A stretch of 64,000 nt of DNA from an uncultured Parvularculaceae bacterium (GTDB lineage Bacteria; Pseudomonadota; Alphaproteobacteria; Caulobacterales; Parvularculaceae): positions 1-64,000 of the forward strand of contig CAJXLJ010000003.1 in assembly GCA_913055785.1 (NCBI GenBank). The letters run 5' to 3'. This document shows, one piece after another, positions 15,052-44,272 of the stretch (the stretch's first letter is position 1; each line of letters starts with the position of its first letter). Position numbers and translations under genes: made by a program. Under the pieces are notes generated by a model. The model was not told the DNA's origin, ran no database searches, and was given only the letters and a program-made list of their open reading frames with translations.

Positions 15052-15495
15052 ATGTCACTTAAAATCAGACTGGCCCGGGGCGGGGCGAAGAAGCGTCCGT
15101 TCTATTCGATTGTTGTTGCCGACAGCCGCATGCCCCGCGACGGTCGCTTCATCGAAAAGATCGGCACCTATAACCCGCTCCTTAAAAAAGACGATGAAAA
15201 CCGCGTTCAGTATAATGAGGAACGCGTCAAGCATTGGCTCGGCGTCGGCGCCAAGCCGTCCGATCGCGTGGCGCGCTTTCTCGCCGCCAACGATCTGGTG
15301 AAATGGGAGCACGGCAATAATCCGAAGAAGGGCGAGCCGGGCGAAAAAGCCAAGGAACGCGAAGCCGAGCGCAAAGAGAAGGAAGAAGCCGCCAAGGCCG
15401 CCGCTGAAGAAGCCGCTGCTGCGCCGGCTGAAGAGCCTGCTGCGGAAGAGGCCCCGGCCGAGGAAGCCGCCGCCGAAGGCGAAAAAGCCGAATAG
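15052..15495 (+). CDS. rpsP: 30S ribosomal protein S16
   Basis: S16 is an assembly protein of the small ribosomal subunit. The first 80 or so residues are the conserved domain ([40 protein letters not shown]). A charged, then Ala/Glu-rich tail follows (about 95-147), as in many alphaproteobacterial S16 proteins. AAGGAAA precedes the ATG. rimM and trmD normally follow but are absent downstream; they lie in reverse at 27.3-29.1 kb. Confidence 0.96.
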
Positions 15496-15513
15496 GCTTT
15501 GCGCATGCGATCA

Positions 15514-15661
15514 AACCGGAGATTACCATCCGGTTAGGTGTTTTCGTCTGCGGGGCGCTGTCCCGCAGACGGCTTGGAATTACGCCCATTCGCGCCGGCG
15601 TTTTCGCACTCGATAACAAAACCGTGAGCTTGCGGTCGGGGTTCGCCCCCGATGGTTTTGC
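15514..15661. repeat. Three stem-loops after rpsP
   Basis: Three inverted repeats lie in a row. AACCGGA pairs with TCCGGTT (15514-15535). A perfect 10-bp stem, CGTCTGCGGG with CCCGCAGACG, occupies 15545-15571. A compound palindrome covers 15617-15660: CAAAACC with GGTTTTG outside, TCGGGG with CCCCGA inside. None is followed by a convincing T-tract on the plus strand. The last one resembles, in a diverged form, the GAGTTTGCGGGCTTCGCCC part of the repeats at 12993-13142. Confidence 0.55.
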
Positions 15662-15712
15662 GCTATTCTGGGTTTCAGGCTGATGAGGGGCTGGAATGCA
15701 AAGGAGCGTGAC

Positions 15713-15910
15713 ATGACGGATGTGAAACGGTTTTTGATAGTAGCTGGCCTTGCGGCTTCAGGCATGTCTCTTTCCGGCTGCGTTGCGGCTGTCGTCGGGG
15801 CCGGCGCTGTGGCGGCTGACGAGATCGTTGAAGGCGACGGCAAATTCGACCCGCTCGAAGAGGCCTATGACGGCGATGATTCAACGACGCCGATCATCGA
15901 CGAAGACTGA
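15713..15910 (+). CDS. Small predicted lipoprotein
   Basis: A 65-residue protein with a type II signal peptide: a hydrophobic stretch, then LSGC at about residues 19-22. The mature part is short, Ala/Gly/Val-rich and then acidic (EGDGKFDPLEE to the C-terminal IIDED). AAGGAGCGTGAC precedes the ATG at 15713 and makes this start better than 15683. Function is unknown. Confidence 0.65.
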   Translation: MTDVKRFLIVAGLAASGMSLSGCVAAVVGAGAVAADEIVEGDGKFDPLEEAYDGDDSTTPIIDED

Positions 15911-16148
15911 TCCCGCCATCAGGACCCGCCGCTTCACGGCTGCGGATAGACTGGCGGTGATGAGGCGGGCCCGCCGTATTCGGGGCCGAAACTGCGCCCG
16001 GCGCGGCGAAATGGGGCTGTCCGGAAGAGGAATCGAGATTTTAGCCCGCTGGTCCTTGCCCATACGCCCCGGCCCCGCCTAATCTCCTCCAAATTTCAAC
16101 AAGAAGCGCGATGAGACGCGCTGAGGCGAATAAGGGCGGGTAATAAGT

Positions 16149-17594
16149 ATGGAAGAGTTTTACGCATCCGTTGACAGTGTCAGCGGGTTCATCTGGGGCG
16201 GCGCGGACTGGAATGGGTACTGGATACCGGCGCCGATGGTGGTCGTGCTGCTGGGCGCGGGCCTTTATTTCATGATCCGGCTGAAGTTTCTGCCGATCCG
16301 GCGCCTGTTTCCGGCTTTCGGCAATCTTTTCTTCCGTAGCCGCAGCGGCTCTACCGATGATTCTTCCGGCGGCGACATCACGCCATGGAACGCGCTTTCG
16401 ACGGCGCTGTCCGGCCAGGTCGGCACCGGCAACCTCGCCGGCGTTGCGACCGCGCTGACCCTCGGCGGCCCGGGCGCGATTTTCTGGATGTGGGTGACGG
16501 CGGTCGTCGGCATGGCGGCGGCTTTTGCGGAATCGAGCCTGGCGGTGAAGTATCGCGAACGCCATCCGGACGGGACCACCCATGGCGGCCCGATGATGTA
16601 CATCAAGAACGGCCTTTCCGGGAAGTGGCACTGGCTCGCTTTGTTCTTTGCGCTCGGCACGATGTTTTCAGCCGTCGTCACCGGCAACATGACGCAGGCG
16701 AATTCGATTGCGACGGCAATGGAGGCGTCATCGGGTGTTCCGACATGGGTGTCGGGGCTTGTCGTTGCGATCGCCGCTTTCATTGTCATTATCGGAGGTA
16801 TCAAGTCGATCGGCTCCGTCGCCGGCAAGATCGTGCCGGCGATGGCGCTCGGTTACATTCTGATCGCGATCATCATGCTTGTGATGCATGCGGAGCATGT
16901 GCCGGAAGCCTTCGGCAAGATATTCGCCTACGCATTCGGTCTTGAGCAAGCGGGCGGCGGGATCGCCGGTTACGCCGTTCTGCAGGCCGTGCGCGCCGGC
17001 GTGGCGAGAGGCCTTTTCTCCAACGAAGCTGGGCAAGGCTCGACAGCGATCGCACACGCCGCGGCGAAGACGGATGATCCCGTGTTCCAGGGTGAGATCG
17101 CGATGCTCGGCGCGTTTATTGACACGATCGTTATCTGCACGATGACGGCGCTCGTCATTCTGGCGGTGCCGGGAGTGTTCCCCGGGGCTGACGGCGGCAC
17201 CGTTGAGTATGCCTGGCAGTCAACGCTGCAAGGCGCCCAGGTGACGACGGCTGTATTCGGCCACGCGCTACCCGATGTTTCGGTTTTCGGGACCACCATT
17301 TCACCGGGCGGTATTTTCATCGCCGTGGCTTTGGCGCTATTCGCCTTCACCACGATTCTTGGCTGGTCATACTATATGGAGCAGGCGGCGACCTATCTGT
17401 TCGGCGACTGGATCGCAAAGCCGGTCCGCGTCATCTGGGTTGTCATGGTTTTCGTTGGCGCGCTTCAGCAGATCGATTTTATCTGGAAGTTTGGCGATCT
17501 CGCCAACGCGTCGATGGCGTTTCCGAACCTGATCGCGATCCTGCTGCTTTCTCCCGTTGTCATCGCCATGGCGAAGGAGAAAGGCCGGCTCTGA
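16149..17594 (+). CDS. Alanine/glycine:cation symporter (AGCS family)
   Basis: An inner-membrane Na+- or H+-coupled amino-acid importer of the AGCS family (AgcS/DagA/AlsT type). The 481 residues contain about eleven hydrophobic helices. Family landmarks include ALSGQVGTGNLAGVATAL, GGPGAIFWMWVTAVVGMA, and RGLFSNEAGQGSTAIAHAAA, the core Na+/substrate motif. It stands alone, followed by an outer-membrane barrel gene on the same strand. Confidence 0.93.
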   Translation: MEEFYASVDSVSGFIWGGADWNGYWIPAPMVVVLLGAGLYFMIRLKFLPIRRLFPAFGNLFFRSRSGSTDDSSGGDITPWNALSTALSGQVGTGNLAGVATALTLGGPGAIFWMWVTAVVGMAAAFAESSLAVKYRERHPDGTTHGGPMMYIKNGLSGKWHWLALFFALGTMFSAVVTGNMTQANSIATAMEASSGVPTWVSGLVVAIAAFIVIIGGIKSIGSVAGKIVPAMALGYILIAIIMLVMHAEHVPEAFGKIFAYAFGLEQAGGGIAGYAVLQAVRAGVARGLFSNEAGQGSTAIAHAAAKTDDPVFQGEIAMLGAFIDTIVICTMTALVILAVPGVFPGADGGTVEYAWQSTLQGAQVTTAVFGHALPDVSVFGTTISPGGIFIAVALALFAFTTILGWSYYMEQAATYLFGDWIAKPVRVIWVVMVFVGALQQIDFIWKFGDLANASMAFPNLIAILLLSPVVIAMAKEKGRL

Positions 17595-17690
17595 GCGCGG
17601 CCGTCGCGTCAGCCTTCCGGTTGAGCGCTTGGCGGTTGCCCGCGCCCTCGTGGCTGGGTAGTCTCTGGGCGTCCGGCGGAGGAGTGTGAC

Positions 17691-18395
17691 GTGAGAATAG
17701 TAACGGCGTTTTTTCTGGCGGCTGCAGTTACAGGGGGAACGGCTTTCGCACAGGAAGGCGCCGCGCCCCTTGAAGATGGCGGCTATATCCGCATCGGCGG
17801 CGGCGCGACTTTCGTGAACGGCTGGGAACAGTCGTTCGCTAGGAATCCTGACACCGTTGTATGCCTCGCGATCGGCTGTAATCCCGACAGCCAAACGCTC
17901 GACTTCAAAAGCGGATGGGCCGGGACGGCGGCGATCGGTTTTGATTATGCAGACGGAATCCGGACAGAACTTGAATATCGTTATACGCAGTCTGAAGTTT
18001 CCACCCAGCGCTTGTTCGAGGGCGGGTTCGAAGTCTCCAACGCGGCGCCGGATGAAAATGTCTCCGGCCATTTCCTGATGTCGAATTTCTATTTCGATTT
18101 CTACACCAAAAGCGCGGTCACGCCCTATATCGGCGGTGGGGTTGGTGGCGCTTTCATAGAGAACGAACGCGGCATGCGCGACGCCGCGCTCGCCTATCAG
18201 GGACGGGCCGGATTGTCCGTATCCATGGGCGACGGTTGGTCGACTGATGTTGAATATCTCTTCGTGAGGACGAAGAGGCTCGTATTCGGTCCGAATACTG
18301 AGGATTTTACGCCCGCCGGGCCGTTTGAGCTCAATATCAGCGGGGACCGCTATCAGTCTTCGTCCGTGATGCTCTTCCTTCGCAAGCGGCTCTGA
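17691..18395 (+). CDS. Outer-membrane beta-barrel protein
   Basis: A 234-residue exported protein with a signal peptide (about 1-20, cleaved near TAFAQ). Alternating hydrophobic strands follow, with YIRIGGGATF, TAAIGFDYADGIRTELEYRY and TPYIGGGVGGAF, the pattern of an OmpA/OmpW-like eight-strand porin. The last residues (SSVMLFLRKRL) end without the classic terminal Phe. The start is a GTG with GGAGGAGTGTGAC upstream. Function is unknown. Confidence 0.78.
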   Translation: MRIVTAFFLAAAVTGGTAFAQEGAAPLEDGGYIRIGGGATFVNGWEQSFARNPDTVVCLAIGCNPDSQTLDFKSGWAGTAAIGFDYADGIRTELEYRYTQSEVSTQRLFEGGFEVSNAAPDENVSGHFLMSNFYFDFYTKSAVTPYIGGGVGGAFIENERGMRDAALAYQGRAGLSVSMGDGWSTDVEYLFVRTKRLVFGPNTEDFTPAGPFELNISGDRYQSSSVMLFLRKRL

Positions 18396-18405
18396 GCGCT
18401 GCGCC

Positions 18406-19023
18406 ATGATGCCGCTCGAGCTTTATCTCGCTTTTGCAGCGGCGTCAGCGTTGCTTGTGCTGACCCCCGGGCCGATGGTCGCCTATCTCGTCGCCACAAC
18501 GCTGGCGCACGGATTGCGTCACGGGTTCATGGCGTTGATCGGCTCCGCCGCGGCGTCGGCGCTTCAACTGGCGGTCGTGGTCGTAGGGCTGTCGCTCATC
18601 CTCAGCACAGCTGCGGAAGCGTTTTTCTGGATTAAATGGGCGGGCGTCGCCTATCTTTTCTATCTCGGCGTCAAGGCCTTGCGCGCGCCTGTCGAGGACC
18701 TGGCGCCCGCGACGGCGGTTCAGCGATCCGCCCGGCGTACTGTCGCCGAAGCGTTTTTCGTCAATCTGACCAATCCGAAAGCACTGCTTTTCCACGGCGC
18801 CTTTCTTCCCTTGTTCGTTTCGCCCTCGGCGCCGGCGATGCCGCAGCTCGTTGTTCTGGCCGTGACGTTCATTGTCATTGCGGCTGTTCTGGACGGCTGC
18901 TGGGCGATCTTCGCCGCGCGGCTCAAGCCTCTTCTGGCCCGGGTCGGCCGCTGGCGTCATCGCATTACCGGCGGCGTGTTGCTGGGCGCCGCCGCCGGTC
19001 TCGCTCTTGTGCGGAAGTCTTGA
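18406..19023 (+). CDS. LysE/RhtB-family amino-acid exporter
   Basis: A 205-residue membrane protein with six hydrophobic helices and the LTPGPMVAYLVATTLAHG motif near the N-terminus, characteristic of the LysE/RhtB exporters of amino acids and homoserine lactones. A NLTNPKALLF segment in the middle is also conserved. The ATG follows the barrel gene by 10 bp, so cotranscription is likely. The substrate is not predictable. Confidence 0.88.
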   Translation: MMPLELYLAFAAASALLVLTPGPMVAYLVATTLAHGLRHGFMALIGSAAASALQLAVVVVGLSLILSTAAEAFFWIKWAGVAYLFYLGVKALRAPVEDLAPATAVQRSARRTVAEAFFVNLTNPKALLFHGAFLPLFVSPSAPAMPQLVVLAVTFIVIAAVLDGCWAIFAARLKPLLARVGRWRHRITGGVLLGAAAGLALVRKS

Positions 19024-19830
19024 TCAATAACGGATGATGAATGGCGAATGCGGACGAAGATCCGCCGTCTTTCCTTGCTTGCCGTCGTCAAAGGTAAGTT
19101 CCATCAGATGCGCGTCGCCATGACCGATCTCGAGGACGCCTTCTTTTTCTAGCGTCTTTAATGTTTGGGAGAGCTTTTGTCCTTTCGGCAGGACGAGTTT
19201 AACGCCTGTCAGAACCCGGGCGCCGTTTGGGTGTTCGAGATGTTGAGCGGATTGCGGGCCAAAGGTGGCTCTTGCCTCGCCTGTAATTTCTAGCGGCAGG
19301 AAAAATGTGTAAGGTTCTTTCTCGTTTTCCGCGCCTTTCGTGGAGTACAGGGAGAAATTTCCGCGCATCCACTCCGCGGTGTATTCTTTAGTCTCGAAGG
19401 GCGACGGCTTATCTTCCTCGTAATCCTTTAATCCGATGCCGAATGGCGAAATATCGGGGTTCTTGCGCCAGTCGTTACGGAGGTTAAAGTCGGAATGTAT
19501 GCGGGGAATATTAGCCTCCGCGGCTTCCGGGTCATCCACCCACAAGAACTCAATGTAGACATTGTCGAAATACATATAGGCGCCGGTCGTGCCCTGCCCG
19601 GTATGGGTGTTTGGAAATGGCCAACGGTCGAAGCCGTGTTGTTGTGCGTAAGCGAGTTCCGGCGCGAAACGATCAGAAAAGAAAAAGATATGATCAATGG
19701 CGAACCGTTCCCCTCCATGAGCTCTGGCTGAGGACGGCGCGGCGGTTTCGGCGCTTTCTTCCTGTTGTGCGGTCGCGACTGGGGATAAAAACGCCAATAA
19801 TGCTGCGGCGGCGACGGGTATCAGTTTCAT
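19024..19830 (-). CDS. Exported glyoxalase/VOC-like protein
   Basis: A 268-residue protein with a cleavable signal peptide (about 1-22) and a fold resembling the glyoxalase/VOC superfamily. FAIDHIFFFSDRF near the start provides a possible metal-binding His, and YMYFDNVYIEFLWVDDPEA a later Glu. The remaining half is not obviously conserved. The start at 19830 is chosen because CAGGAGC lies just upstream and the longer version from 19926 adds an unlikely leader. It is divergent from an AraC-type regulator gene, which may control it. Confidence 0.7.
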   Translation of the reverse strand: MKLIPVAAAALLAFLSPVATAQQEESAETAAPSSARAHGGERFAIDHIFFFSDRFAPELAYAQQHGFDRWPFPNTHTGQGTTGAYMYFDNVYIEFLWVDDPEAAEANIPRIHSDFNLRNDWRKNPDISPFGIGLKDYEEDKPSPFETKEYTAEWMRGNFSLYSTKGAENEKEPYTFFLPLEITGEARATFGPQSAQHLEHPNGARVLTGVKLVLPKGQKLSQTLKTLEKEGVLEIGHGDAHLMELTFDDGKQGKTADLRPHSPFIIRY

Positions 19831-19866
19831 ATCGGGGCTCCTGAAAGTAGGGTGGTCAAAGATCAA

Positions 19867-19884
19867 GTTGTTTGAAAAAACAAC
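19867..19884. promoter_or_regulatory. Inverted repeat in the VOC/AraC divergent gap
   Basis: A perfect inverted repeat GTTGTTT-GAAA-AAACAAC lies between the divergent VOC-like gene (start 19830) and the AraC-type gene (start 20017). It may be a regulator-binding site. This is inference from position and symmetry only. Confidence 0.4.
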
Positions 19885-20016
19885 GATGATAAAGATATGT
19901 CGCGTCATATGTAGCAGTTTGCGCAAATTGAGACGTCTTTTTGCGGCGAATCGCAGATTTTGCGCGACGGTTTGGCTTAGACGCAGCCGGCTAGCGCGGT
20001 AGAGGCTTGCGCTATC

Positions 20017-21069
20017 GTGACGTTTTCATTTGCTTCTGCCCTGCAATTGCTGATTGCTGCAAACGGCCTGCTGCTTGCTGCGGGACTGCTCGCGCTCAGG
20101 TTCTTTGGGCGCAGCGCTAATCCTGCATTGCCGCTGATCTTTTTTACGTTCGCGCTGCAAATGGCTGGGGAGTTTGCGCATCAGACCCGTTCCAGTCTTG
20201 CTTTATCAGAGCTCAGGGCTGCTTTGAGCCTCGTATATGGGCCGTTATTTTACCTTTACTTCCTCAATTTCGCTGAACCCCGAAGAGGATTGCGCTGGAA
20301 GGATGTCTGGCACGGAATCCCGTTTTTCGTCGCCGTCGCGACCTTGGCCGCCGCGCTGTATTTCGGCGTGCTGGATTTCAGCATTCATCTTTACGCCGCA
20401 GCCGCCGGCGTAAGCTTGTTGGGATACGCCTGGCTGTCATGGCGGAACGTTCGCCCGAAACTCGCAAGCAATAGCCCGGCGCGCAGGCTTCAGTGGGCGG
20501 CGCTGGCTGCTGCGATGACCGGCCTAATGATCGGCCTGACCGTGGTGGCGACGAATTTCAATTGCGAATTCATCGAGAACGGCCCGGTATTGTGGACCCG
20601 CAACGCGTTGCTGATCTCCATTGTGTTGTTGATGAACGGTTTTTTGCTGGGTGGGCTGTGGGACGACCGCGTGCTGTTCTCGGCGCGGCATGTTTCAACT
20701 TCCACACAAGAAGATGAGGCCATCTTAAAGGCCCTTGATGATGTCCTGGAACAGGAGCGCTTATTTGCGGATCCGGAGGTGACGCTCGACAGGCTGGCTG
20801 CGGCCCTCTCGCTTAGGCCGCGCCGCGTGTCGGAGGCGGTGAACCGGCTGCACGATGTGAGCGTGCCTGCCTATATCAATCGGCGCCGAGTGGAGGAGGC
20901 TAAAAAACTGCTCGCCGGAGACGCCGCCGCTGGCCGATCCCTGCTCGCCCTGGCGCATGACGCAGGCTTCAATTCGAAAGCGACATTTAATCGCGCATTC
21001 AAGGAAATTGTCGGCGAAACGCCGTCCGCCTATCGGCAACGAGTGAGCGGCGTCGCGGCTGAGAATTAG
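20017..21069 (+). CDS. Membrane-anchored AraC-family regulator
   Basis: A 350-residue protein with a membrane sensor half and a DNA-binding half. The first 220 or so residues hold about six or seven hydrophobic helices (LLIAANGLLLAAGLLALRF onwards). The C-terminal 100 residues form the double helix-turn-helix of AraC regulators, with VTLDRLAAALSLRPRRVSEAVN and SLLALAHDAGFNSKATFNRAFKEIVGETPSAYR, the family signature. GTG start. It faces the exported VOC-like protein gene across 186 bp, so the pair may be a small signal-response module. Confidence 0.88.
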   Translation: MTFSFASALQLLIAANGLLLAAGLLALRFFGRSANPALPLIFFTFALQMAGEFAHQTRSSLALSELRAALSLVYGPLFYLYFLNFAEPRRGLRWKDVWHGIPFFVAVATLAAALYFGVLDFSIHLYAAAAGVSLLGYAWLSWRNVRPKLASNSPARRLQWAALAAAMTGLMIGLTVVATNFNCEFIENGPVLWTRNALLISIVLLMNGFLLGGLWDDRVLFSARHVSTSTQEDEAILKALDDVLEQERLFADPEVTLDRLAAALSLRPRRVSEAVNRLHDVSVPAYINRRRVEEAKKLLAGDAAAGRSLLALAHDAGFNSKATFNRAFKEIVGETPSAYRQRVSGVAAEN

Positions 21070-21140
21070 AAGCGAACAGACACGTTGCTCCCCTCTCATT
21101 GACGCGCTAGACCGGCGCCGACGGATAATAGCGGCTTTAG

Positions 21141-22133
<993 letters not shown>

Positions 22134-22139
22134 GCCGGT

Positions 22140-22487
22140 TCAGTCGCCGCTGTAAAAGCCCTGGGTGTAGCGACGGGATTTCGGGCCGCGCCCGGTATAG
22201 AAGCCTTGTGTGCGCATGGGACGGAACGCCCGCCAGACGCGTTTCTCTATGGCGACTTCAATATTCATGCTGTGAGAAAGCAGACCCGCGCCGGCAAGCG
22301 CCGCGGCGGGTTTTTTCGCGCTCCGAAATACATGCACGCCGTTGATGTCCTCGAATGTCATGCCGGGCGTCATCGCTGTTTTCTCTTTCGCGGGGCCGGC
22401 GGTGAGCAGTTTCGGTCCCGGATGAGCGATCGCCCCCGTGGCGCCGAGCGCGGCCGCCGCCGCCAATAGAGCCAGTCCCTTACGCAT
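22140..22487 (-). CDS. Small exported hypothetical protein
   Basis: A 115-residue protein with a signal peptide (about 1-22, cleaved near AIAHP). The mature part ends in a basic, aromatic tail containing a duplicated motif, TQGFYTGRG and TQGFYSGD. I do not recognise a family. AAGGAGGCGGCGAT just upstream of the ATG at 22487 makes this start much better than 22544. It converges on mdh with 6 bp between stops. Confidence 0.65.
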   Translation of the reverse strand: MRKGLALLAAAAALGATGAIAHPGPKLLTAGPAKEKTAMTPGMTFEDINGVHVFRSAKKPAAALAGAGLLSHSMNIEVAIEKRVWRAFRPMRTQGFYTGRGPKSRRYTQGFYSGD

Positions 22488-22666
22488 ATCGCCGCCTCCT
22501 TGTCCGTTCGCTATAGCTTCGCGCCGTGCGGCGGGGGCTGGCAAGGCGGAAGCGGCGGTAAGGGCGAAAGAATCCGCGCATCTTGCGCTTATGCGGGGAA
22601 GACGGCTGTCCCGGCTCCACCTAAAGGCGCATTGAAGGCGGCGCGCATCACGATAGAACGGGGTTC

Positions 22667-23824
22667 ATGAAAATCCTTTACTCGCATCGCACCCGTTCGG
22701 CGGACGGGCAATATGTGCATATCCGCGAGCTCACGGAGGCGCTCGCTGCGCGCGGTTGCGAGGTGGTGATAGCGGGTCCCGACAGCGGCGATGCGAAGGC
22801 GCTTGACGCCGGAGAGGGCGGCGGGATGAAGCGGTTTTTGCCCGGACCGCTCTACGAATGCGCCGAGTACGGATATTCTTTTCTCGGCTATCGCCGGCTT
22901 GCGGCGCTCGCGGCGGAAACGCGGCCCGACGTGCTCTATGAAAGATACAACCTTTTCTATCATGCGGGGGCCTGGCTGAAGCGCCGCGCCGGCCTGCCCA
23001 TGTTGCTTGAAGTGAACGCTCCCCTGGTCGACGAGCGCCGCGCGCATGGCGGCCTGGCGCTCAAAGATTTCGCCCGAAGGAGCGAAGCGGCGATCTGGCG
23101 CGCCGCCGATATGGTGCTGCCGGTCAGCAATGCGCTCGCCGACTATGTTCGGGCGGCGGGTGTTCCCGGCGACCGCATCGAGGTTATTCACAACGGCGTG
23201 GGCGCCGATTTTTTGATCGAGCGCGATGGCTGGGCCGTCCGCCGCCGGTACGGTCTTGAAGACAAGCTTGTTCTCGGCTTCACGGGCTTCGTGCGCGAAT
23301 GGCACCGGGTCGATCGGGTGATCCGGTTTCTCGCGGCGCATGAGAACCGGCATCTCGCTTTTCTTCTCGTCGGCGACGGTCCCGTGCGTCCGGGCCTCGA
23401 GACGCTCGCTGCTGAACTTGGCGTCAGCGACCGCGTACGGTTCGCCGGCGTCGTACAGCGCGAGCATCTCGCCGATCACGTCGCCGCCTTCGACGTCGCC
23501 CTGCAGCCGGCGGTGACCCCTTACGCGTCGCCCTTGAAACTTTTTGAATACATGGCGCTCGGCAAGGCGATCATCGCCCCGGCGGGCGCCAATATCCGGG
23601 AGGCGCTCCGGGGCGGCGAAGAGGCGCTGCTGTTCGGTCAGGAAGAGGGCGGTTTTGACAGGGCGCTCTCGGCGCTCGTGGAAGACGGCGAGCTTCGCGC
23701 TCGGCTCGGCTCGGCGGCGCGCGCGCGGCTGTTGCGTGACGACCTCACCTGGGCCGGCAATGCGCGCCGCGTCGAACGCCTTGCTGAAACGCTCTTGGAG
23801 ACTCCCCATGTCGATCCGGCTTGA
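22667..23824 (+). CDS. Glycosyltransferase family 4 protein
   Basis: A 385-residue GT-B glycosyltransferase. The N-terminal Rossmann half has the acceptor-side pattern QYVHIRELTEALAARGCEV. The C-terminal half carries the donor-binding GT4 motif SPLKLFEYMALGKAIIAP, with the Glu expected to contact the nucleotide sugar. Sugar and acceptor are unknown; cell-surface polysaccharide is a reasonable guess. The last 17 bases overlap the GNAT gene. Confidence 0.9.
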   Translation: MKILYSHRTRSADGQYVHIRELTEALAARGCEVVIAGPDSGDAKALDAGEGGGMKRFLPGPLYECAEYGYSFLGYRRLAALAAETRPDVLYERYNLFYHAGAWLKRRAGLPMLLEVNAPLVDERRAHGGLALKDFARRSEAAIWRAADMVLPVSNALADYVRAAGVPGDRIEVIHNGVGADFLIERDGWAVRRRYGLEDKLVLGFTGFVREWHRVDRVIRFLAAHENRHLAFLLVGDGPVRPGLETLAAELGVSDRVRFAGVVQREHLADHVAAFDVALQPAVTPYASPLKLFEYMALGKAIIAPAGANIREALRGGEEALLFGQEEGGFDRALSALVEDGELRARLGSAARARLLRDDLTWAGNARRVERLAETLLETPHVDPA

Positions 23825-24344
23825 AACAGAACGCCTTGTGCTCCGTCCGATGGAGGCGCGCGACGTCGAGAGCCATGTGGAGATGATGCAGGATCCCGGC
23901 ATGGCGGCCTATCTGACCCCCGATGGGAAAGTCCGGCCCCGCATGGATGAATGGCGCGGCGCGGCGATGCTGCTTGGCCACTGGCAGATAAGAGGCTTCG
24001 GCTTTTTCTCGGTTGAGGAAAAGGCGACAGGCGACTGGGTCGGCCGCGTTGGTCCGTGGAAGCCGGAGGGCTGGCCGGCGCTTGAATGCGGCTGGGGGAT
24101 TAGAAAAGAACACTGGGGCAAGGGCTATGCGCCCGAAGCGGCGATCGCCTCGGTCCGGTGGATATTTGATCAGTTCCCAGACCTTCCGAGGGTCATCTCC
24201 CTCATCGATCCGGAAAACGCCAACAGCCAGGCGGTGGCGAAGAAGATCGGAGAGGAAAAGTCGGGCGAGGTCTTCGAGCTCTGGGGTTTGCGCCTCGACG
24301 TCTGGTCCGCCGGGCGCAAAGACTGGCTTGCCCGGTTCGGATAA
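23808..24344 (+). CDS. GNAT-family N-acetyltransferase
   Basis: A 178-residue GNAT enzyme of the RimJ/RimL-like group, which transfers acetyl from acetyl-CoA to an amine. It opens with the typical IRLETERLVLRPMEARD. The coenzyme-pyrophosphate segment is GIRKEHWGKGYAPEAAIASV, and SLIDPENANSQAVAKKIG is the conserved C-terminal part. The ATG at 23808 overlaps the glycosyltransferase end and has GGAG upstream, so translation is coupled. The longer frame from 23544 is antisense-like filler within the glycosyltransferase. Confidence 0.88.
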   Translation: MSIRLETERLVLRPMEARDVESHVEMMQDPGMAAYLTPDGKVRPRMDEWRGAAMLLGHWQIRGFGFFSVEEKATGDWVGRVGPWKPEGWPALECGWGIRKEHWGKGYAPEAAIASVRWIFDQFPDLPRVISLIDPENANSQAVAKKIGEEKSGEVFELWGLRLDVWSAGRKDWLARFG

Positions 24345-24514
24345 TTTTTGCCGGGCTTCATTTTTCCTCTTGAAATCCTCCGCGCTTTGACGATTTGCTA
24401 TTGTCGCCGTCGAGCCGTTTGGTTGGCCTGGTCGCGAGGGCGATCAGAGTAAGGATTGTGCGCCCTTGCGCACGGGGCTGCCGTCCCATTGTCCGGCCTG
24501 GAGACTATCTGCAA

Positions 24515-24946
24515 ATGATGCTTGTTCCGACTTACGTCGCCGCGAGCGACGTCGAAGGCGTGGGCGTATTCGCCGCGAAACGTATAAAAAAGGGCGCTTT
24601 GATCTGGCGCTACGACCCGAGTTTCGACCGGCTTGTGCCCTCGACCTGGTTGCAGGAACAGACGCCGATGATGCGTGAGTTCCTGACCAAATATGCATAC
24701 CCGGCGCATGATCGCCCGGACATGCTGGTGATCGAAATCGACAATGGCCGGTTCATGAACCACACGCTGGAGCCGAACACCGACTTCACCAAGGTCATCG
24801 AGGGCTATGCGCTGCGGGACATCGCCGCCGGCGAGGAACTGCTCTGCAACTACACAGAGTTCGATCCCGGCTTCCAGCTGCTGCCGTCGGCGGTCACTGC
24901 ATTTGCGAAGAAAAAGGCCCGCGCCAACGGCGTCTCCGCTCATTAA
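24515..24946 (+). CDS. SET-domain protein
   Basis: A 143-residue protein consisting only of a SET domain, the fold of protein-lysine methyltransferases. Landmarks are VEGVGVFAAKRIKKGALIWRY (N-SET), GRFMNHTLEPNTDF (the NHxxxPN motif), and IAAGEELLCNYTEFD (GEEL...Y motif). ATG codons at 24515 and 24518 are both plausible after GGAG; the longer frame from 24395 would add an arginine-rich leader unlike the family. Such free-standing SET proteins occur in bacteria, with few known substrates. Substrate is unknown. Confidence 0.82.
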   Translation: MMLVPTYVAASDVEGVGVFAAKRIKKGALIWRYDPSFDRLVPSTWLQEQTPMMREFLTKYAYPAHDRPDMLVIEIDNGRFMNHTLEPNTDFTKVIEGYALRDIAAGEELLCNYTEFDPGFQLLPSAVTAFAKKKARANGVSAH

Positions 24947-25028
24947 TTCGTGAATGGGCGGCGCCGCCGGTTGACCTCAACGCAACAAGCGCGATCATGG
25001 GCGAACCGATTCACTACGAGGGGCTCCC

Positions 25029-26468
25029 ATGATTGTCAGAGGTTTCGCCACGGCGGCGCTCGCCGCGTCTATTGTTGTCACGTCGTCCGTTTCGGCGCAG
25101 GAGGCGGCGCCTTCGCCCGCGCTAACGCCAGAGCAGGCGCGCACGGTCGACCGGCTCATAGATCAGGGGCTCAAGAACGATCTCGCCTGGGAGGTTCTTG
25201 AAAGCTTGACGACCGAAGTAGGTCCCCGCCTCGGCGGGTCCGAAGCGGAGGCGCGCGCCAGAGACTGGGGTGCGGCGAAACTCAAAAGCCTCGGCTTCAA
25301 GAATGTCAAAATCGAAACCTTCGAGATGCCTTACTGGGAACGGGTCTCCGAACGCGCCGAGATCGTTTCTCCGTTTCCGCAGCCGCTGTCGCTGACCGCT
25401 CTTGGCGGGTCGATCGGCACGCCGGAGGGCGGCCTTGAAGGTGAGGTCGTCCGTTTCGGTACGCTCCCCGAGCTGCAGGCGGCGCCGCTGACCGGCTATG
25501 AGGGCAAGATCATCTTTGTCGATGAACCGATGGCTCGCACGCAGGACGGATCAGGTTACGGCATGGCGGTTCGCAAGCGCGGCCTTGCGGCTGTCGAGGC
25601 CGGCAAGCGCGGCGCCGCAGCGGCGCTGATCCGTTCAGCCGGCACCGATTATCACCGCAATCCGCACACCGGCGGCGCGACATTCAGGGGTGGGGCGACC
25701 GCCGTGCCCACGGCGGCGCTCGCCAACCCCGATGCAGACCAGCTCACACGCGTGCTGAAACGCGCCAATGGGCCGGTTATCGTCAATCTTGAGCTCGTCG
25801 TGAACACCAGGGAGACCGTCACATCGGGCAATGTGATCGGCGAAATTCCCGGCAAGACGAACGAAATCATCGTGATCGGCGGCCATCTCGATAGCTGGGA
25901 TCTTGGTACTGGCGCGATTGACGACGGCGCCGGCATCGCCATTACCACGGCGGCGGCGAAACTGGTCGGCGATCTTAATGGCAAGCCGACTCGCACCATT
26001 CGCGTCGTGATGTGGGGATCTGAAGAAGTCGGCGTTTACGGCGGTTCGGCTTATGCTGAAGCTCATGCCGATGAGATCGACCGGCACGTCGTCGCGGCGG
26101 AGTCGGACTTCGGCGCCGGCAGAATCTATCAGTTCAGTACTCGCTTTGGCGAAAGCGCGCTTCCCAAAGCGACTCCAATGGCGAACGCGTTACGGCGGCT
26201 GGCGATTACGCCGGGCGACAACAACGCTTATGGCGGCGCCGATATCGGCGCGATTATGCGCCTTGGCGTGCCGGCGGTTACGCTCGCCCAGTCCGGCTGG
26301 GATTATTTCGACCTTCATCACACGCCCGATGACACACTCGATAAGGTCGATCCCGAAGCCTTGCGCCAGAACGTCGCCGCCTGGGCCGCTTTCATCTATA
26401 TGGCGTCAGAAATGGAAGGCGGCTTTCGGGATGACGGGGACGGGGAGAGCGCTTCCGATAGTGACTAG
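25029..26468 (+). CDS. Exported M28-family zinc peptidase with PA domain
   Basis: A 479-residue secreted peptidase of the M28 family (glutamate carboxypeptidase/aminopeptidase type). A signal peptide covers about 1-23. A PA-type insert lies in the middle (RSAGTDYHRNPHTGG). The di-zinc site is visible: GGHLDSWDLGTGAIDDG, WGSEEVGVYGG with the catalytic Glu, AESDFGAG, and LHHTPDDTLDKV with the last His. The C-terminus is acidic. It probably digests peptides in the envelope, like the S9 and M24 enzymes nearby. Confidence 0.92.
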   Translation: MIVRGFATAALAASIVVTSSVSAQEAAPSPALTPEQARTVDRLIDQGLKNDLAWEVLESLTTEVGPRLGGSEAEARARDWGAAKLKSLGFKNVKIETFEMPYWERVSERAEIVSPFPQPLSLTALGGSIGTPEGGLEGEVVRFGTLPELQAAPLTGYEGKIIFVDEPMARTQDGSGYGMAVRKRGLAAVEAGKRGAAAALIRSAGTDYHRNPHTGGATFRGGATAVPTAALANPDADQLTRVLKRANGPVIVNLELVVNTRETVTSGNVIGEIPGKTNEIIVIGGHLDSWDLGTGAIDDGAGIAITTAAAKLVGDLNGKPTRTIRVVMWGSEEVGVYGGSAYAEAHADEIDRHVVAAESDFGAGRIYQFSTRFGESALPKATPMANALRRLAITPGDNNAYGGADIGAIMRLGVPAVTLAQSGWDYFDLHHTPDDTLDKVDPEALRQNVAAWAAFIYMASEMEGGFRDDGDGESASDSD

Positions 26469-26543
26469 GCGCCGCCGAACGCAGGTCCGGCTGCTTTTCC
26501 TGTTATTAGAGTTTTCATTAAGTCATTGAAATTTAAAGATTAT

Positions 26544-26571
26544 GGGGAAGGTTTCTATAGAAACCTTCCCC
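26544..26571. repeat. 28-bp perfect palindrome
   Basis: GGGGAAGGTTTC, TATA, GAAACCTTCCCC: a perfect 12-bp inverted repeat with a TATA loop, in an A+T-rich island between the M28 gene and the membrane protein gene at 26697. There is no T-run after it on the plus strand, so it is not a textbook terminator. It could be a binding site or an RNA hairpin. Confidence 0.7.
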
Positions 26572-26696
26572 AAACTGATTATTACGGTCGCGGTATTTAA
26601 AAACAGTTTGTCGGCCCCAGAATTTCGCGCATAGTCCGTTTCCATGTTGCGTAACGGTTCCCGGCCGCGCCGGGTTTTTGCAACGGGGAACATTCC

Positions 26697-27239
26697 ATGG
26701 CGAAAGAAAAGAAGAGTTCTGAATATACGAAGCGACAGGACGGCGGCGCGACGGTGTTTACAGTTACGCCGGCGCCGGCGCCGAAATTCACCGCCATTCT
26801 GGTGATCGGCGGCGTGATGGGTCTTCTCGGACTCAGCATGCTGGCGGGCGGCCCGGGCATCATCTTCCTGGCGATGGCGGCGTTCTGTTTCTGGTACGGG
26901 TGGACGCGCGACTTGCGGCCGAAAGAGACGCGCCAGCCGGCGACTTTTCGCGTCACGGCGGACCGGATCGAATCCGGCGGCCAGACTTTTTCTAAGGACG
27001 ACATTCACCGCCTGATCCTGCGCAACAGCATCACGGATCAAGAAGTCACGACGATCTATACGACAAACGCCAATGTCGCCGCTGGCCTCGCCTATCGCGG
27101 GCAAGTCGCGCGCGTGGCGAACACGCTGACGGTGGAATCCGGCGGGAAGTCGAGCCTGATTGCTGGCGGGATGGATGAAACGACGGCCTTCGGGCTGCTG
27201 TCGGACGTCTGCAAGATCATGGGTTATGAGGTCAATTGA
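26697..27239 (+). CDS. Membrane protein with cytosolic PH-like tail
   Basis: A 180-residue protein I do not recognise by name. A charged N-terminus is followed by two hydrophobic helices at about residues 31-52 and 55-71. The C-terminal 100 residues (FRVTADRIESGGQTFSKDDI, then RLILRNSITDQEV) look like a soluble beta-rich domain. GGGGAACATTCC precedes the ATG. It is followed by the bidirectional terminator at 27271. Confidence 0.65.
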   Translation: MAKEKKSSEYTKRQDGGATVFTVTPAPAPKFTAILVIGGVMGLLGLSMLAGGPGIIFLAMAAFCFWYGWTRDLRPKETRQPATFRVTADRIESGGQTFSKDDIHRLILRNSITDQEVTTIYTTNANVAAGLAYRGQVARVANTLTVESGGKSSLIAGGMDETTAFGLLSDVCKIMGYEVN

Positions 27240-27270
27240 CCGCCGGCCTTGAGAGCCGGGCTGGCGCATA

Positions 27271-27300
27271 AAAAAAGCGGCTCAACTGAGCCGCTTTTTT
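27271..27300. terminator. Bidirectional intrinsic terminator
   Basis: An A-tract, a GC-rich stem AGCGGCTC/GAGCCGCT with loop AACT, and a T-tract (CTTTTTT). It works in both directions, ending the plus-strand gene at 26697 and the minus-strand rplS operon that converges on it. Confidence 0.9.
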
Positions 27301-27320
27301 CAGGAAGTTTTTTTTAGCGC

Positions 27321-27698
27321 CTATTCCGCGTCTTTCTTCGAGCGGCGGTCGACTTTCTCAGCGATACGGGCCGACTTGCCGCGGCGGTCGCGCAGATAAT
27401 AGAGCTTGGCGCGGCGCACCTTGCCGCGGCGCACGACTTCGATGGAATCGACCAGCGGCGAGTAGACCGGGAAGACCCGCTCGACGCCTTCGCCGAAGGA
27501 GATCTTGCGAACCGTGAAATTCTCATTGAGGCCGCCGCCGGCGCGGGCGATGCAGACCCCTTCGAACGCCTGCAGACGTTCGCGGTCGCCTTCGCGCACC
27601 TTGACGTTGACCTTGACCGTATCCCCGGGAGCGAACTCCGGCACGTTCTTGCCGAGTTCTTCCATATGCTCTTTTTCGAGCTGTTCGATAATGTTCAT
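27321..27698 (-). CDS. rplS: 50S ribosomal protein L19
   Basis: L19 sits at the interface between ribosomal subunits. The 125 residues include [48 protein letters not shown] and the [18 protein letters not shown] core, which match the family. It is the last gene of rimM-trmD-rplS. Its ATG overlaps the trmD stop, so translation is coupled. A strong terminator follows. Confidence 0.97.
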
Positions 27699-28438
27699 CG
27701 CTTCGGTTCCTTGTTGTTTTCCCGCCGGATAGGACCGTCAGCGTGAAACCTTTCAAAAAGGTCCGGTCGTCGCGCGCGCGTTATGTCTTCAGCCATTTTG
27801 CGCCGCCATTCGGCGATCTTTTGGTGGTCGCCTGAAAGCAGCACGTCCGGGACGGCCCGGCCCTCGAACTCTCTCGGGCGCGTATACTGGGGATATTCCA
27901 GCAACCCGCCCTCAAAGCTTTCCTCGCCCAGCGAGGAAGGCGAGCCCAATACCCCGGGGAGAAGCCGGACGCAAGCCTCGATCAGCGCCATCGCGGCGAT
28001 TTCCCCGCCGGCGAGGACGAAGTCCCCGATTGAGACTTCCTCTATCCCCCTTGCCTCGAAAATCCGCTCGTCGATCCCCTCGAAACGGCCGCAAAGGGCG
28101 ATGAGCCCGGCGCCTTCGGAAAGCGTGCGGGCCCTGCCCTGCGTCAAGGGCGCGCCCCGGGGCGTCAGGCAGATCAGCGGGCGCCCGGCGCGGTCGACGC
28201 TGTCGATCGCCGCCGCCAGGATATCGGCGCGCATGACCAGACCCGCGCCGCCGCCCGCCGGCGTGTCGTCCACGGAGCCGTATTTGTTGTCGGAAAAATC
28301 GCGGATGTTGACGGTCTCGAGCGCCCATGAGCCTTCCGCGCGCCCACGCCCGAGAACGGAGGCATCCAGCGGTCCCGGAAAAAGCTCCGGAAAGAGGGTC
28401 AAGACAGTCGCGCGCCACATGGAGCGAGGAAATGACAT
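27695..28438 (-). CDS. trmD: tRNA (guanine37-N1)-methyltransferase TrmD
   Basis: TrmD methylates G37 of tRNAs to prevent frameshifting, using SAM in a trefoil-knot (SPOUT) active site. [14 protein letters not shown] starts the enzyme. [27 protein letters not shown] and [20 protein letters not shown] form the knot and dimer interface. [10 protein letters not shown] is diagnostic. I prefer the ATG at 28438, although 28420 is also possible and neither has a clear ribosome site. The frame from 28567 overlaps rimM too far. The gap to rimM is 61 bp. Confidence 0.95.
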
Positions 28439-28499
28439 GGGGGCGGGGAAGGCGCAAGCTGGGCGGAAAGAGGTCTTGAGCGTCCGTCCCTTGGAGACC

Positions 28500-29075
28500 T
28501 CAGGCGTCCTCTTCGCGTATCGCCGTTTCGATAAAGGCGCGTTTGGCGTGCGGATTGTCTTCCTCATCCAGCGCGCCGCGCCTTATCGTGATTGTCCCGG
28601 CGGCGATATCGACCTCAGGGAAATCGGCTTTTGTGAAGGCAATGAGCCGCACGCCCTGCATGCCGGGGATCGCCTTCAGTTCGACAACGTCGCCCGCGCC
28701 GAAATTATAAACCGCGGATACGGCGCCCAGGGGTGCGCCGGTCTCGTCCACGGCTTTGAGGCCGACAAGGTCATCGAGATAGAATTCGTCTTCTTCTGGA
28801 GCAGGCAGTTCTCTGCGATCGATGTAAAGCCGTGCGCCTTTGAGGCTTTCCGCGTCCTCCCGGCTTTTGATTTCCGGCGCGCGAACAAGGGCGATGTCGG
28901 GCCCGATGATCCGGACGACCGTCAGCGTAAAGCGCCTTGCGCCGTCTTCGGTTTCAACGGTGCCGTATGCGGCGATATTTTCCGGCGTTTCGGTGAAAGT
29001 CTTTACTTTCACCTCGCCCTTTACGCCGTGAGCGCCGGCAAAGGCGCCGAGGCAGACGCGCTTCGCCTCAGTCAT
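28500..29075 (-). CDS. rimM: Ribosome maturation factor RimM
   Basis: RimM assists 16S processing and assembly of the 30S head, binding S19. The 191 residues have the N-terminal domain ([20 protein letters not shown]) and a C-terminal PRC barrel ([20 protein letters not shown], then [18 protein letters not shown]). AGGAAAGCG precedes the ATG at 29075. The start overlaps the end of the MFS gene by 8 bp. RimM usually follows rpsP; here rpsP is 13.6 kb away in the opposite orientation. Confidence 0.95.
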
Positions 29076-30309
29076 CGCTTTCCTGCTCTTGAGGCTGAAA
29101 GAGCCTTCCCTTTTCCGTCCAGAGAACAAGCGCGAAAGCGCCGACACCGAGACAGACGAAACCGAGAATGATCGGCATGGTCGTGCCGTCATAGAACTGC
29201 CCGATCATTCCGCCGAGGAACCCGGCGAGGGTCGTGCCGGCGAAGCCGTTCGCGGCGGCTGCAGCGCCGGCGATGTGGCCCATCGGTTCCATCGCCATAG
29301 CGCTCATATTCGGTCCGATCAGGCCGAGCGCAAAAAACGAAACTGACATAAAAAACATGAACAGCACGAAGGTTTCGCCCATCGTCGCGGCGATCGCGAG
29401 GTGGATCAGATTGGCGATCAGGAATACGAGCAGCGCGCCATGGGAGAGGCGCCGCATGCCGAAGCGCATCACCAGCCGCGCATTCAGCAGCGTTGCGACG
29501 CCAAGGGATGCGGCGATCCCGGCAAACGCAACGGCGAAATTCTGGCCAAGGTCGAATGTCTCAAGAAATATCTGTTCCGATGCGCTGATATAGCCGAACA
29601 GCGCGCCGAAACATAAGGCGGCGGCGAGCGTGTAGCCGAGCGCCGTTCGGTTGCGAATAAATTGAAGATAGGAGGAGGCGATTGGTCCGGGGCGAAGCGG
29701 TTTCCTGTCCTCCGGCGCCATGGTTTCCGGCAGCCGCCAGCGCATCCACAAGGCGAGCACGGCGCCGTAGAGCAACAAGGCGACGAAGATGCCGCGCCAG
29801 GGCGCCGCAAATAGAATGAGCTGACCGAAACTGGGCGCAAGAATAGGCGCCGCCATGAAGATGGTGATCGCGAGCGACATGACTTCCGCCATGCGCCGCC
29901 CTGAGCACTGGTCGCGCACGATGGCGACCGCTGAGACGCGCGTCGCCGCGGTGGCGACGCCCTGAAACCATCGAGCGGCGAGCAGCAGCGTGAAGGACGG
30001 GGCGAAGATGCTGAGCGCCGAGCCAGCGATATAGCCGCCAAGCGACCAGATGAGCACGTTTTTTCGCCCGAAGCGGTCGACAATCGGCCCGAAGAACAGC
30101 TGTGCGACGCCATTGCCGAGAACGTAGACGATGATGACGAGTTGACGGTCGTTATCGCGCGCGGCGCCGAGATCGTCGCCGATCATCCCGAGCGCCGGCA
30201 GCATCATATCAATCGCGAGGGCGTTGAGCGCGAAAACGGCGGCGACGATGCCGACAAGTTCGGGAAACGGTATCCGCGGCGTTTTCGTGGTTGTTGATTG
30301 TGCGTCCAT
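29068..30309 (-). CDS. MFS multidrug transporter, Bcr/CflA type
   Basis: A 413-residue major-facilitator exporter with about twelve hydrophobic helices. FGPIVDRFGRKNVLIWSLG is the loop 2-3 MFS motif. ARWFQGVATAATRVSAVAIVRD is typical of the Bcr/CflA drug:H+ antiporters. The stop lies within the first codons of rimM. This is an unusual partner for rimM and may mark a rearrangement junction. Confidence 0.9.
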   Translation of the reverse strand: MDAQSTTTKTPRIPFPELVGIVAAVFALNALAIDMMLPALGMIGDDLGAARDNDRQLVIIVYVLGNGVAQLFFGPIVDRFGRKNVLIWSLGGYIAGSALSIFAPSFTLLLAARWFQGVATAATRVSAVAIVRDQCSGRRMAEVMSLAITIFMAAPILAPSFGQLILFAAPWRGIFVALLLYGAVLALWMRWRLPETMAPEDRKPLRPGPIASSYLQFIRNRTALGYTLAAALCFGALFGYISASEQIFLETFDLGQNFAVAFAGIAASLGVATLLNARLVMRFGMRRLSHGALLVFLIANLIHLAIAATMGETFVLFMFFMSVSFFALGLIGPNMSAMAMEPMGHIAGAAAAANGFAGTTLAGFLGGMIGQFYDGTTMPIILGFVCLGVGAFALVLWTEKGRLFQPQEQESDD

Positions 30310-30352
30310 GCGCCGGGGTTACGCCCGGCGAAGCGGATTGGCAATGCTGGCG

Positions 30353-31534
30353 TTAATCTTCGCTGGTGTCGCCAATCGCTTCGAGCGCGCGTTTGCGCTC
30401 ATGATCGGAATCGATGGTCCGCACCGCCGCCAGATAGCGGCCGCGCAGGGATGGGTTCTCCTCTGCCGCGTCGGCCAATGTTTCCAGCGCAAGCCGCTGA
30501 TCGTAGCTTGAGGAAATCGTATCGAAAGCATCGAACCACGCCTCGGCGACGCCGCCGTCAGTAGATGCAATTTCGGCGCTGTCGGTCAGCACAAGCCGCA
30601 TGTCGTGATCGCTTTCGATCTTGCGGGCCGCCGCACTCAGAAGGCGGGCCGACTGTGCGGGCGTAATAGCGTCGTTTTCGAGCAGGGCTTCCGCTGCGAC
30701 TCGTAGATCGTGATCGCTGTCGATTTGTTTGTAGAGCCCTAAAAGCAAGCCCATGGCTGCGTCATCAAGCGGGCGTTCTGCGAACGCCTCAACGATCTGG
30801 CGCATTTCGTGGTCGCTTTCGATTGACGTCGCCGTAGCCAGAAGGGCCTTCGCTGCATTGTCGGTAACGTCTTCCTGTTCGACAATGGCTTCGATTGCGC
30901 CGCCGAGATCATGATCGCTCTCGATATCTTTGAGCGCCTCTGTCAGGGCGATGATGTCGGTTTCCGTGAGGTCGGCCTGTTCGACCAGCGCCGTCGTATA
31001 GCGGCGTTTGGCGTGACCGCCCTCAAGATGATCGAATTCGGCGAGCACGGCGCTTGCATCTCCGCGTTTCAAAAGCGCGGCGACGCGTTCGTCGGCCTTG
31101 ACGCCGCTGGCGCGAAGAAATTTCAGCACCAGCGCGCGAACCGCCTTGTCGGTATCTTCTCCCTCGGGCTGCTTGTCGCCGTTGCGGTAGTAAACGGCTT
31201 CGAGACCGTCGCCGTCTTCAAACACGGCGCGTTCTTTTTCGCCGTCTTCGGTTATCTCGATTTGCAATTCGTCGTCGACCGTGCGGATATAGTCGCCGCT
31301 TTCATCGAGCATGAATTCGCCGCTCCAGGCGGCCTTGATCGAATAGCCGTTCTCCCGCAGCGAGAACTCGCTTTGATCGCCATGGGTCATATGGCGCACG
31401 GAGCGGCCGTCATCGTCATCGCTGATGGTGAAGTGAAAACCGCCGCTGCGGCCATCGCCAGTGACGACTGCATAGGCAGCTGAAACGAACACGGCGGTTC
31501 CGGCCAGAATGGCGAGCGATCGAAGGCTTTTCAT
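30353..31534 (-). CDS. Exported HEAT-like repeat protein with SDHD motifs
   Basis: A 393-residue protein with an N-terminal signal or anchor helix (about 5-24), a middle beta-rich part, and a C-terminal half made of about six helical repeats. Each repeat is about 34 residues long and has the marker (E/D)SDH(D/E)xRxxxEAL at its end: ESDHDLGGAIEAI, ESDHEMRQIVEAF, DSDHDLRVAAEAL, ESDHDMRLVL, SSYDQRLALETL and DSDHERKRALEAI. The family name is unknown to me. Similar SDxDRRxAL repeats are found beside M56/BlaR1-type peptidases in relatives, but none is nearby. GGAAGAG supports the ATG at 31534. Confidence 0.75.
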   Translation of the reverse strand: MKSLRSLAILAGTAVFVSAAYAVVTGDGRSGGFHFTISDDDDGRSVRHMTHGDQSEFSLRENGYSIKAAWSGEFMLDESGDYIRTVDDELQIEITEDGEKERAVFEDGDGLEAVYYRNGDKQPEGEDTDKAVRALVLKFLRASGVKADERVAALLKRGDASAVLAEFDHLEGGHAKRRYTTALVEQADLTETDIIALTEALKDIESDHDLGGAIEAIVEQEDVTDNAAKALLATATSIESDHEMRQIVEAFAERPLDDAAMGLLLGLYKQIDSDHDLRVAAEALLENDAITPAQSARLLSAAARKIESDHDMRLVLTDSAEIASTDGGVAEAWFDAFDTISSSYDQRLALETLADAAEENPSLRGRYLAAVRTIDSDHERKRALEAIGDTSED

Positions 31535-31657
31535 GTCAGTCTCTTCCAATATAGGATCGCAGCCAATCTAGGCGATCCGGAGGGTGAATTGAACCATATC
31601 CGGGTCGAAACGGCGCGCTTCCGCGACAGGCTGTACGGATCAGGCGGCGAGCCGTTT

Positions 31658-32830: not shown

Positions 32831-32848
32831 TTTGAAAGGCGTCTGAGG

Positions 32849-33865: not shown

Positions 33866-33877
33866 GGCGGCTTCCCT

Positions 33878-35084: not shown

Positions 35085-35098
35085 ATTTCCATAAATAT
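35083..35098. promoter_or_regulatory. Candidate ArsR operator
   Basis: The inverted repeat ATATTT-CCAT-AAATAT overlaps the arsR start codon. It lies in an A+T-rich gap between arsR and the plus-strand gene at 35226. Symmetry and position suggest autoregulation; no binding data are available. Confidence 0.45.
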
Positions 35099-35225
35099 AA
35101 AATTATACTTGTTGTTGCAAGCCCTGAGGCCAAACATTTTTACTCGGCAAACTGGTGGAATCGCCGCAGACAGTGCCGGGGCTTTCCGCAAAGCTCCGAT
35201 TTCGATAGCAAAACGATAGCGAGCG

Positions 35226-36788: not shown

Positions 36789-36803
36789 TCCGGCAAGCCT
36801 TTC

Positions 36804-40367: not shown

Positions 40368-40386
40368 GGAGTCTCCTGTGCGAATT

Positions 40387-44265: not shown

Positions 44266-44272
44266 GGGTTCG

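Follow-up and report, generated by a model that had tools for sequence, protein, structure and literature searches.

Gene layout at the locus

The window analysed here (bases 1-64000 of contig C3, in an assembly of 85 contigs from a Parvularculaceae bacterium) carries the genes of the trmD operon in two separate parts. A recent account gives this operon as rpsP-rimM-trmD-rplS (PMC10931766), and a description of Bacillus subtilis places ffh within it (PMC10100781). In the window, rpsP, rimM, trmD and rplS do not form one adjacent, co-directional row: the operon is split after rpsP, and ffh-rpsP (+) and rplS-trmD-rimM (-) converge across 13.6 kb, with ffh-rpsP ending at 15495 and rimM starting at 29075. 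An earlier note on this DNA had described the two parts as split and facing each other; matches to protein family profiles confirm this description, and in all 14 genomes of the window's genus-level group that carry rpsP and trmD on one contig the two genes converge at a distance of 11.7-32.4 kb, so the arrangement is not due to chance. The order across the locus is rpsP>agcS>...mdh>GT4>M28>rplS<trmD<rimM<MFS<(30353)<zapE<...sdhB<...sdhA<, where arrowheads give gene direction, MFS denotes a major facilitator superfamily transporter gene and the number stands for the gene at that position. Genes for AgcS, an outer-membrane-like protein, LysE, malate dehydrogenase (mdh), a GT4 glycosyltransferase, a SET-domain protein and an M28 peptidase, all on the plus strand, lie among others between rpsP and rplS.

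Genomes (G numbers) were compared in groups labelled g1 to g9. The window's own group, g1 (Hyphococcus/Marinicaulis; NCBI now places Marinicaulis under Hyphococcus), is represented by 28 genomes, of which the 14 left out of the count above either miss rpsP or trmD or have them on separate contigs. The single 3.47-Mb contig of G004 (g1) shows the convergent arrangement. By TrmD, the named records nearest to the window's genome belong to Marinicaulis and other Parvularculaceae.

Relatives retain the unflipped order

Within the Parvularculaceae, we observed the reverse arrangement of the inner gene row. G034 (g8) reads ffh>rpsP>rimM>trmD>rplS>M28<GT4<mdh<agcS<, after which its contig ends, and G033 and G068 (g7) read ffh>rpsP>rimM>trmD>rplS>M28<...agcS<; these three genomes show the unflipped rpsP-rplS end. 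The unflipped zapE end is found in G028 (g2), with trmD>rplS>M28<mdh<agcS<zapE<sdhB<sdhA<, whose order from zapE onward is that of the window's right flank. Relative to these four genomes, the inner row of the window and of g1 is reversed with its order kept. The M28 peptidase gene is the next listed gene to rplS in flipped genomes as well as in g7, g8 and some g2 genomes. On the left, dctA..ffh-rpsP has the same order in G034 and G033, and on the right zapE-sdhB-sdhA is conserved in G028; the two outer flanks are thus drawn from different unflipped genomes. Because reversing rimM..agcS between rpsP and zapE interconverts the unflipped and the window orders, the comparison points to an inversion. 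The earlier note had proposed one, and its proposal stands in that the unflipped order is found at both ends, but not in its exact right breakpoint.

Counts of neighbouring genes agree with this picture. The next gene of our fixed list 3' of rpsP is agcS in 22/22 genomes of g1 and g5 that include the rpsP region, and rimM in 18/18 such genomes of g2, g4, g7 and g8. The rpsP|agcS junction was seen only in g1 and g5, because g3 and g6 were probably rearranged again at this point. At the other end, an agcS homologue adjoins zapE in G028 (459 bp between matches; 43% identical to the window's agcS). Five g2 genomes have zapE and mdh on a single contig; in four of them (G028, G078, G079 and G080; not G076) the two genes share a strand, with zapE 4-17 kb upstream. 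The rimM gene adjoins the MFS gene in 37 of the 38 genomes with rimM in g1, g3, g5, g6 and g9, the exception being G067, and in none of the 18 with rimM in g2, g4, g7 and g8.

The five carrier groups (g1, g3, g5, g6 and g9) form one clade in a tree of seven proteins, five of them from the operon of the locus itself (ultrafast bootstrap, UFBoot, 96). This tree had 66 rows, nine of them outgroup; G005, G009, G070 and G071, with fewer than three of the seven genes, and G018, with no region, were omitted. The same clade was recovered in a second tree, built under a mixture model from 43 of the 66 rows (SH-aLRT 100). Groups g2, g7 and g8 are placed nearest to the carriers, and g4 is basal.

The most economical history is a single inversion in the stem lineage of the carriers, and we give it a probability of about 0.9. 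A block from rimM to agcS, ~13.6 kb today, would have inverted once in the common ancestor of g1, g5, g9, g6 and g3, with one end in the rpsP-rimM gap and the other in the agcS-zapE gap. The flip would have cut ffh-rpsP-rimM-trmD-rplS after rpsP, leaving the operon halves facing each other, and parted zapE from agcS-mdh. On the same branch, an MFS transporter gene would have come between zapE and rimM; rimM now directly follows this gene, as a rule with its start codon overlapping the stop codon of the MFS gene. Groups g3 and g6 were probably rearranged once more downstream of rpsP. While we infer the physical process of inversion from gene orders, the event is a real, single and old inversion of an ordinary kind, neither recent nor an assembly join: a recent date is ruled out by the same arrangement across g1 and other genus-level groups.

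Alternative histories of the split

Several observations weigh against this history. No genome carries the unflipped row from ffh to zapE unbroken: the contig of G034 stops after agcS, and in g2 trmD-rplS is already separated from rpsP-rimM. The agcS|zapE adjacency was read in G028 only, and the agcS homologues of unflipped genomes are just 37-59% identical to that of the window, so that their orthology rests on position. Among outgroup genomes of the order, the orientation of zapE and mdh is mixed. Both genes are present in 18, of which 13 do not have them close together; in the five with both within ~2.1 kb they are co-directional in two (G051, G043) and convergent, as in the window, in three (G037, G041, G057). 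This weakens the linkage of zapE and mdh across the order as proof of polarity, and polarity at the zapE end therefore rests on g2 rather than on the order at large. Group g9 is placed by the rimM|MFS junction alone, and G067 (g6) shows neither convergent rpsP and trmD nor an MFS match. Lastly, g3 and g6 carry another block directly after rpsP (G029, G074 and six g6 genomes; not G063), and rpsP and trmD, still convergent, are 96-213 kb apart in G029, G074 and G060. Judged by eye, this block comprises a BCCT-type transporter, a sugar dehydrogenase, pho-type regulators and a gcrA-like gene; no gene of the fixed list was found downstream of rpsP in 10/10 g3 and g6 genomes, with 2-10 kb of sequence in each.

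The block common to g3 and g6 is what favours a history in two steps, in which a larger, earlier rearrangement split rpsP off, as in g3 and g6, and a later one in g1 placed it beside agcS. The first tree, which unites g6 with g1 at a support of 96, also leans this way and would require an extra step of a single early inversion. Against two steps, the gcrA-like gene lies away from rpsP in 12/12 genomes of g1, g2 and g7 that have the two on a single contig, by 61 kb in the genome of the window and by at least 125 kb in the other 11, so that the g3/g6 junction looks derived; a second event ending exactly at rpsP|agcS would be a coincidence; and a clade of g3 and g6 is not rejected (p-AU, approximately unbiased test, 0.72). 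If these two groups are a clade, their rearrangement at rpsP would be one later event. G029 and G074 (g3) retain the remainder of the flipped row, agcS>mdh>M28>rplS<trmD<rimM<MFS<zapE<, in agreement with the single inversion. We therefore regard the two-step history as improbable. Excision of rimM-trmD-rplS, with or without neighbours, and its reinsertion in reverse elsewhere is less probable still. Parts of the operon do move in this family, since g2 has trmD-rplS 21-66 kb from rpsP-rimM in several orientations, but in g1 the whole agcS..M28 row is reversed along with the trio, and its outer neighbours, rpsP and zapE, are those expected of a flip in place.

That the facing arrangement is ancestral and the joined operon the exception has a very small chance of being correct, even though rpsP and trmD are separated in many outgroup genomes and the three with convergent zapE and mdh resemble the window. 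The two genes are co-directional within ~1-3 kb in g4 (3/3), g7 (4/4 genomes with both genes) and g8 (1/1), and lie within ~1 kb of each other in three outgroup genomes from families f3 and f5. Fifteen outgroup genomes have both on a single contig, and only in G051 do the two occupy opposite strands; there trmD lies 965 kb from rpsP, on its upstream side. The earlier note had raised this possibility, of one arrangement throughout the order, together with that of an assembly join at a breakpoint, and neither was borne out. The 85 contigs of the window's own assembly leave some room for an assembly or binning artefact, to which we give practically no credence because the same junctions occur in other assemblies, including the single contig of G004 and a contig of G022. 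We thus retain the single inversion of rimM..agcS.

Further breaks of the trmD operon

All seven g2 genomes with both genes on one contig (G028, G075, G076, G077, G079, G080 and G082) keep ffh-rpsP-rimM together, whereas trmD lies 21-66 kb away in changing orientation; this break, between rimM and trmD, represents a separate disruption of the operon. In the 24 outgroup genomes, rpsP and trmD are within 10 kb in nine, farther apart on one contig in six and on different contigs in nine. Breaking of the trmD operon is thus common in this order. The order called usual by the earlier note is kept in G034, G033 and G068 but often broken across the order, where 3/24 outgroup genomes have the two genes within ~1 kb.

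Two further observations concern these genes. Within g1, the matches to rimM and trmD are separated by anything between a few bases and 5.6 kb (e.g. L146/L147). G008 carries a second rpsP beside a second rimM in unflipped order on another contig (G008:C42:47939-48762); this is either a duplicate or a contaminant, the listed contamination of the genome being 4.

The breakpoints and features of the locus

Comparison of gene orders with relatives places the left breakpoint in 15496-16148, between rpsP and agcS; the right junction is known only to lie within 29076-31657, between rimM and zapE (Table 1). The earlier note had set the right breakpoint at the overlap of rimM and the MFS gene. This placement is more exact than the comparison allows: in g2, g4, g7 and g8 just six genomes have an MFS match at E <= 1e-60, 38-45% identical, and in none of them does it adjoin rimM or zapE. 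We accordingly rejected the idea that the MFS gene belonged to the unflipped neighbourhood; its absence there narrows the right junction only to the rimM-zapE interval and suggests that the gene arrived on the same branch as the inversion, before or after the flip. In G060, G065, G066, G073 and G074, zapE, the MFS gene and rimM follow one another; zapE and the MFS gene are 71-232 bp apart, and the gene at 30353 was not found between them. In G029, G032, G061 and G062 zapE and the MFS gene are separated by ~3 kb of other DNA.

Table 1 Features of the locus in the window
Feature	Coordinates	Strand	Basis or comment
ffh (signal recognition particle GTPase), fixed left flank	13496-15022	+	TIGR00959
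rpsP (30S protein S16), final gene left of the inversion	15052-15495	+	TIGR00002
Left junction interval rpsP|agcS; contains small open reading frame and non-conserved hairpins	15496-16148	.	
Small open reading frame, lipoprotein-like start	15714-15911	+	judged by eye
agcS-type Na+:alanine symporter	16149-17594	+	TIGR00835
Outer-membrane beta-barrel-like protein, within flipped segment	17691-18395	+	PF01617 (PF13505 below cut-off)
LysE-type exporter, within flipped segment	18406-19023	+	PF01810
mdh (malate dehydrogenase), now on opposite strand to zapE	21171-22133	+	NF004863/TIGR01763; order in G034, G028
GT4 glycosyltransferase, within segment	22667-23824	+	PF13439
SET-domain protein, within segment	24395-24946	+	PF00856
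M28 peptidase	25029-26468	+	PF04389
rplS (50S protein L19)	27321-27698	-	TIGR01024
trmD (tRNA m1G37 methyltransferase)	27695-28420	-	TIGR00088
rimM (16S rRNA maturation factor), right end of flipped segment	28500-29075	-	TIGR02273
MFS transporter	29068-30309	-	nearest Bcr/CflA efflux pumps, below model cut-off
Right junction interval rimM|zapE; now holds MFS gene and one more gene	29076-31657	.	inferred from G028
Gene between MFS and zapE in g1, no family match	30353-31549	-	profile searches, no match
zapE (AFG1-family ATPase), fixed right flank	31658-32830	-	NF040713; PF03969
sdhB-like iron-sulfur protein, right flank, order as in G028	35946-36788	-	PF13085
sdhA and two Sdh_cyt subunits, right flank, order as in G028	47528-50057	-	PF00890/PF02910/PF01127

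Candidate marks of the breakpoints were also considered. The earlier note had pointed to a hairpin-rich gap after rpsP. This description is overstated: the gap folds only slightly better than shuffled sequences (z -1.72; 9 of 200 shuffles equally good), and the hairpins are not common to relatives, which led us to reject them as a breakpoint mark. Three terminator-like sites, two of them on the minus strand, occur in 15400-16200, compared with 0.9 in shuffles, although scans of this type carry little weight in alphaproteobacteria. No inverted repeat links both junction intervals among the 25 longest of 106 pairs, although repeats could have decayed, and nothing in this set makes a convincing case for inverted repeats as the cause of the inversion. 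Three pairs (I2, I16 and I21) link coding DNA at 16.4-17.8 kb with coding DNA at 29.3-31.3 kb at 74-83% identity. As for hot spots of rearrangement, searches of the 64-kb window found neither tRNA genes nor Rfam families.

Other observations concern the right flank. The zapE matches in G022, G025, G074 and G075 each contain one in-frame stop (TAG, TAG, TGA and TGA, respectively), which may reflect a sequencing error, the edge of the match or a pseudogene. Among the genes of the sdh region, the window carries a TonB-dependent receptor and a DUF6607 protein (40888-44265), whose homologues (69-70% identical) are paired between GT4 and M28 in G020; this suggests a gene pair that moves about. The ~7.5 kb at 36789-44299, with a hybrid histidine kinase, the TonB receptor, DUF6607 and others, separates sdhB from an enoyl-CoA hydratase gene, and the homologues of these two genes are 0.13-2 kb apart in G003, G010, G011, G024 and G027. 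The stretch looks like an insertion in the window's lineage.

The MFS-rimM junction and the strand of the operon halves

The rimM start codon (29075-29073) and the MFS stop codon (29070-29068) lie within an 8-bp overlap of the two genes (29068-29075, minus strand), as the earlier note had reported. A candidate rimM start (ATG or GTG, within ATGA or GTGA) at position -4, overlapping the MFS stop by 4 bp, is present in 33 of 37 loci, a count of candidate starts that omits G017 and includes G007 twice. In the remaining loci the rimM start stands at -8 (the window), +6 (G003), +2 (G074) and +45 (G035) relative to the MFS stop. Overlaps of this kind usually reflect co-transcription and coupled translation, and their conservation here is like that of translationally coupled pairs. 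The rimM-trmD-rplS trio is thus probably read now from promoters upstream of or inside the MFS/zapE string, with its translation coupled to that of the MFS gene. A promoter scan found no sigma-70-like site on the minus strand of 26900-35300 or on either strand of 15400-16200, a result that says little for alphaproteobacteria. The MFS protein scores 185.7 bits against TIGR00710 (Bcr/CflA), below the curated cut-off of 200.9.

The GC skew of G004, taken at 20 samples, has its minimum near 1.2-1.4 Mb and its maximum near 2.8 Mb, which makes the plus strand the leading strand at the locus; the skew of the window is positive in 8/8 bins. Judged from the skew, ffh-rpsP would be on the leading strand and rimM-trmD-rplS on the lagging strand, and the inversion would have moved the trio from the former to the latter.

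A stronger functional claim could be built on this junction: that the flip made a lasting new regulatory unit in which an efflux-type transporter gene is translationally coupled to rimM, that ribosome maturation (rimM, trmD and rplS) is tuned with transporter expression, that this was selected across five genus-level groups, and that S16 and L19 lost their shared control. We consider this claim unlikely.

Significance and comparison with known systems

In this example, for which the direction of change has been worked out, a fixed inversion both cut a ribosomal-protein operon and separated zapE from mdh. The locus also illustrates how a new upstream gene, overlapping in its codons, can take over the severed part of a core operon. 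The event is a clear instance of a common type and reveals no new system. As a phylogenetic marker, the inversion may be of use for a clade of Parvularculaceae. A passage of a 2024 review states that nothing is known about the regulation of the trmD operon (PMC10931766), and a lineage that lives with a split operon could show, as an experiment of nature, whether S16 and L19 have to be controlled together. Searches of the literature on the operon, on synteny in the Parvularculaceae and on strand inversions returned, among the matches listed, no title or abstract opening that names this inversion.

Compared with the trmD operon as described, the locus has the same genes, and each half keeps its internal order. 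It differs in being cut between rpsP and rimM, with the halves convergent on opposite strands and rimM placed after an MFS gene. Inversions that move genes between the leading and lagging strands have been described in bacteria (PMC6220195; comment in PMC9098844), as have inversion landscapes (PMC5850607). To judge from the portions of these sources considered here, the event at the locus is alike in being a local inversion that switches the strand of the enclosed genes; it differs in that its left end cuts a core operon and in that the flip has been kept across several genus-level groups.

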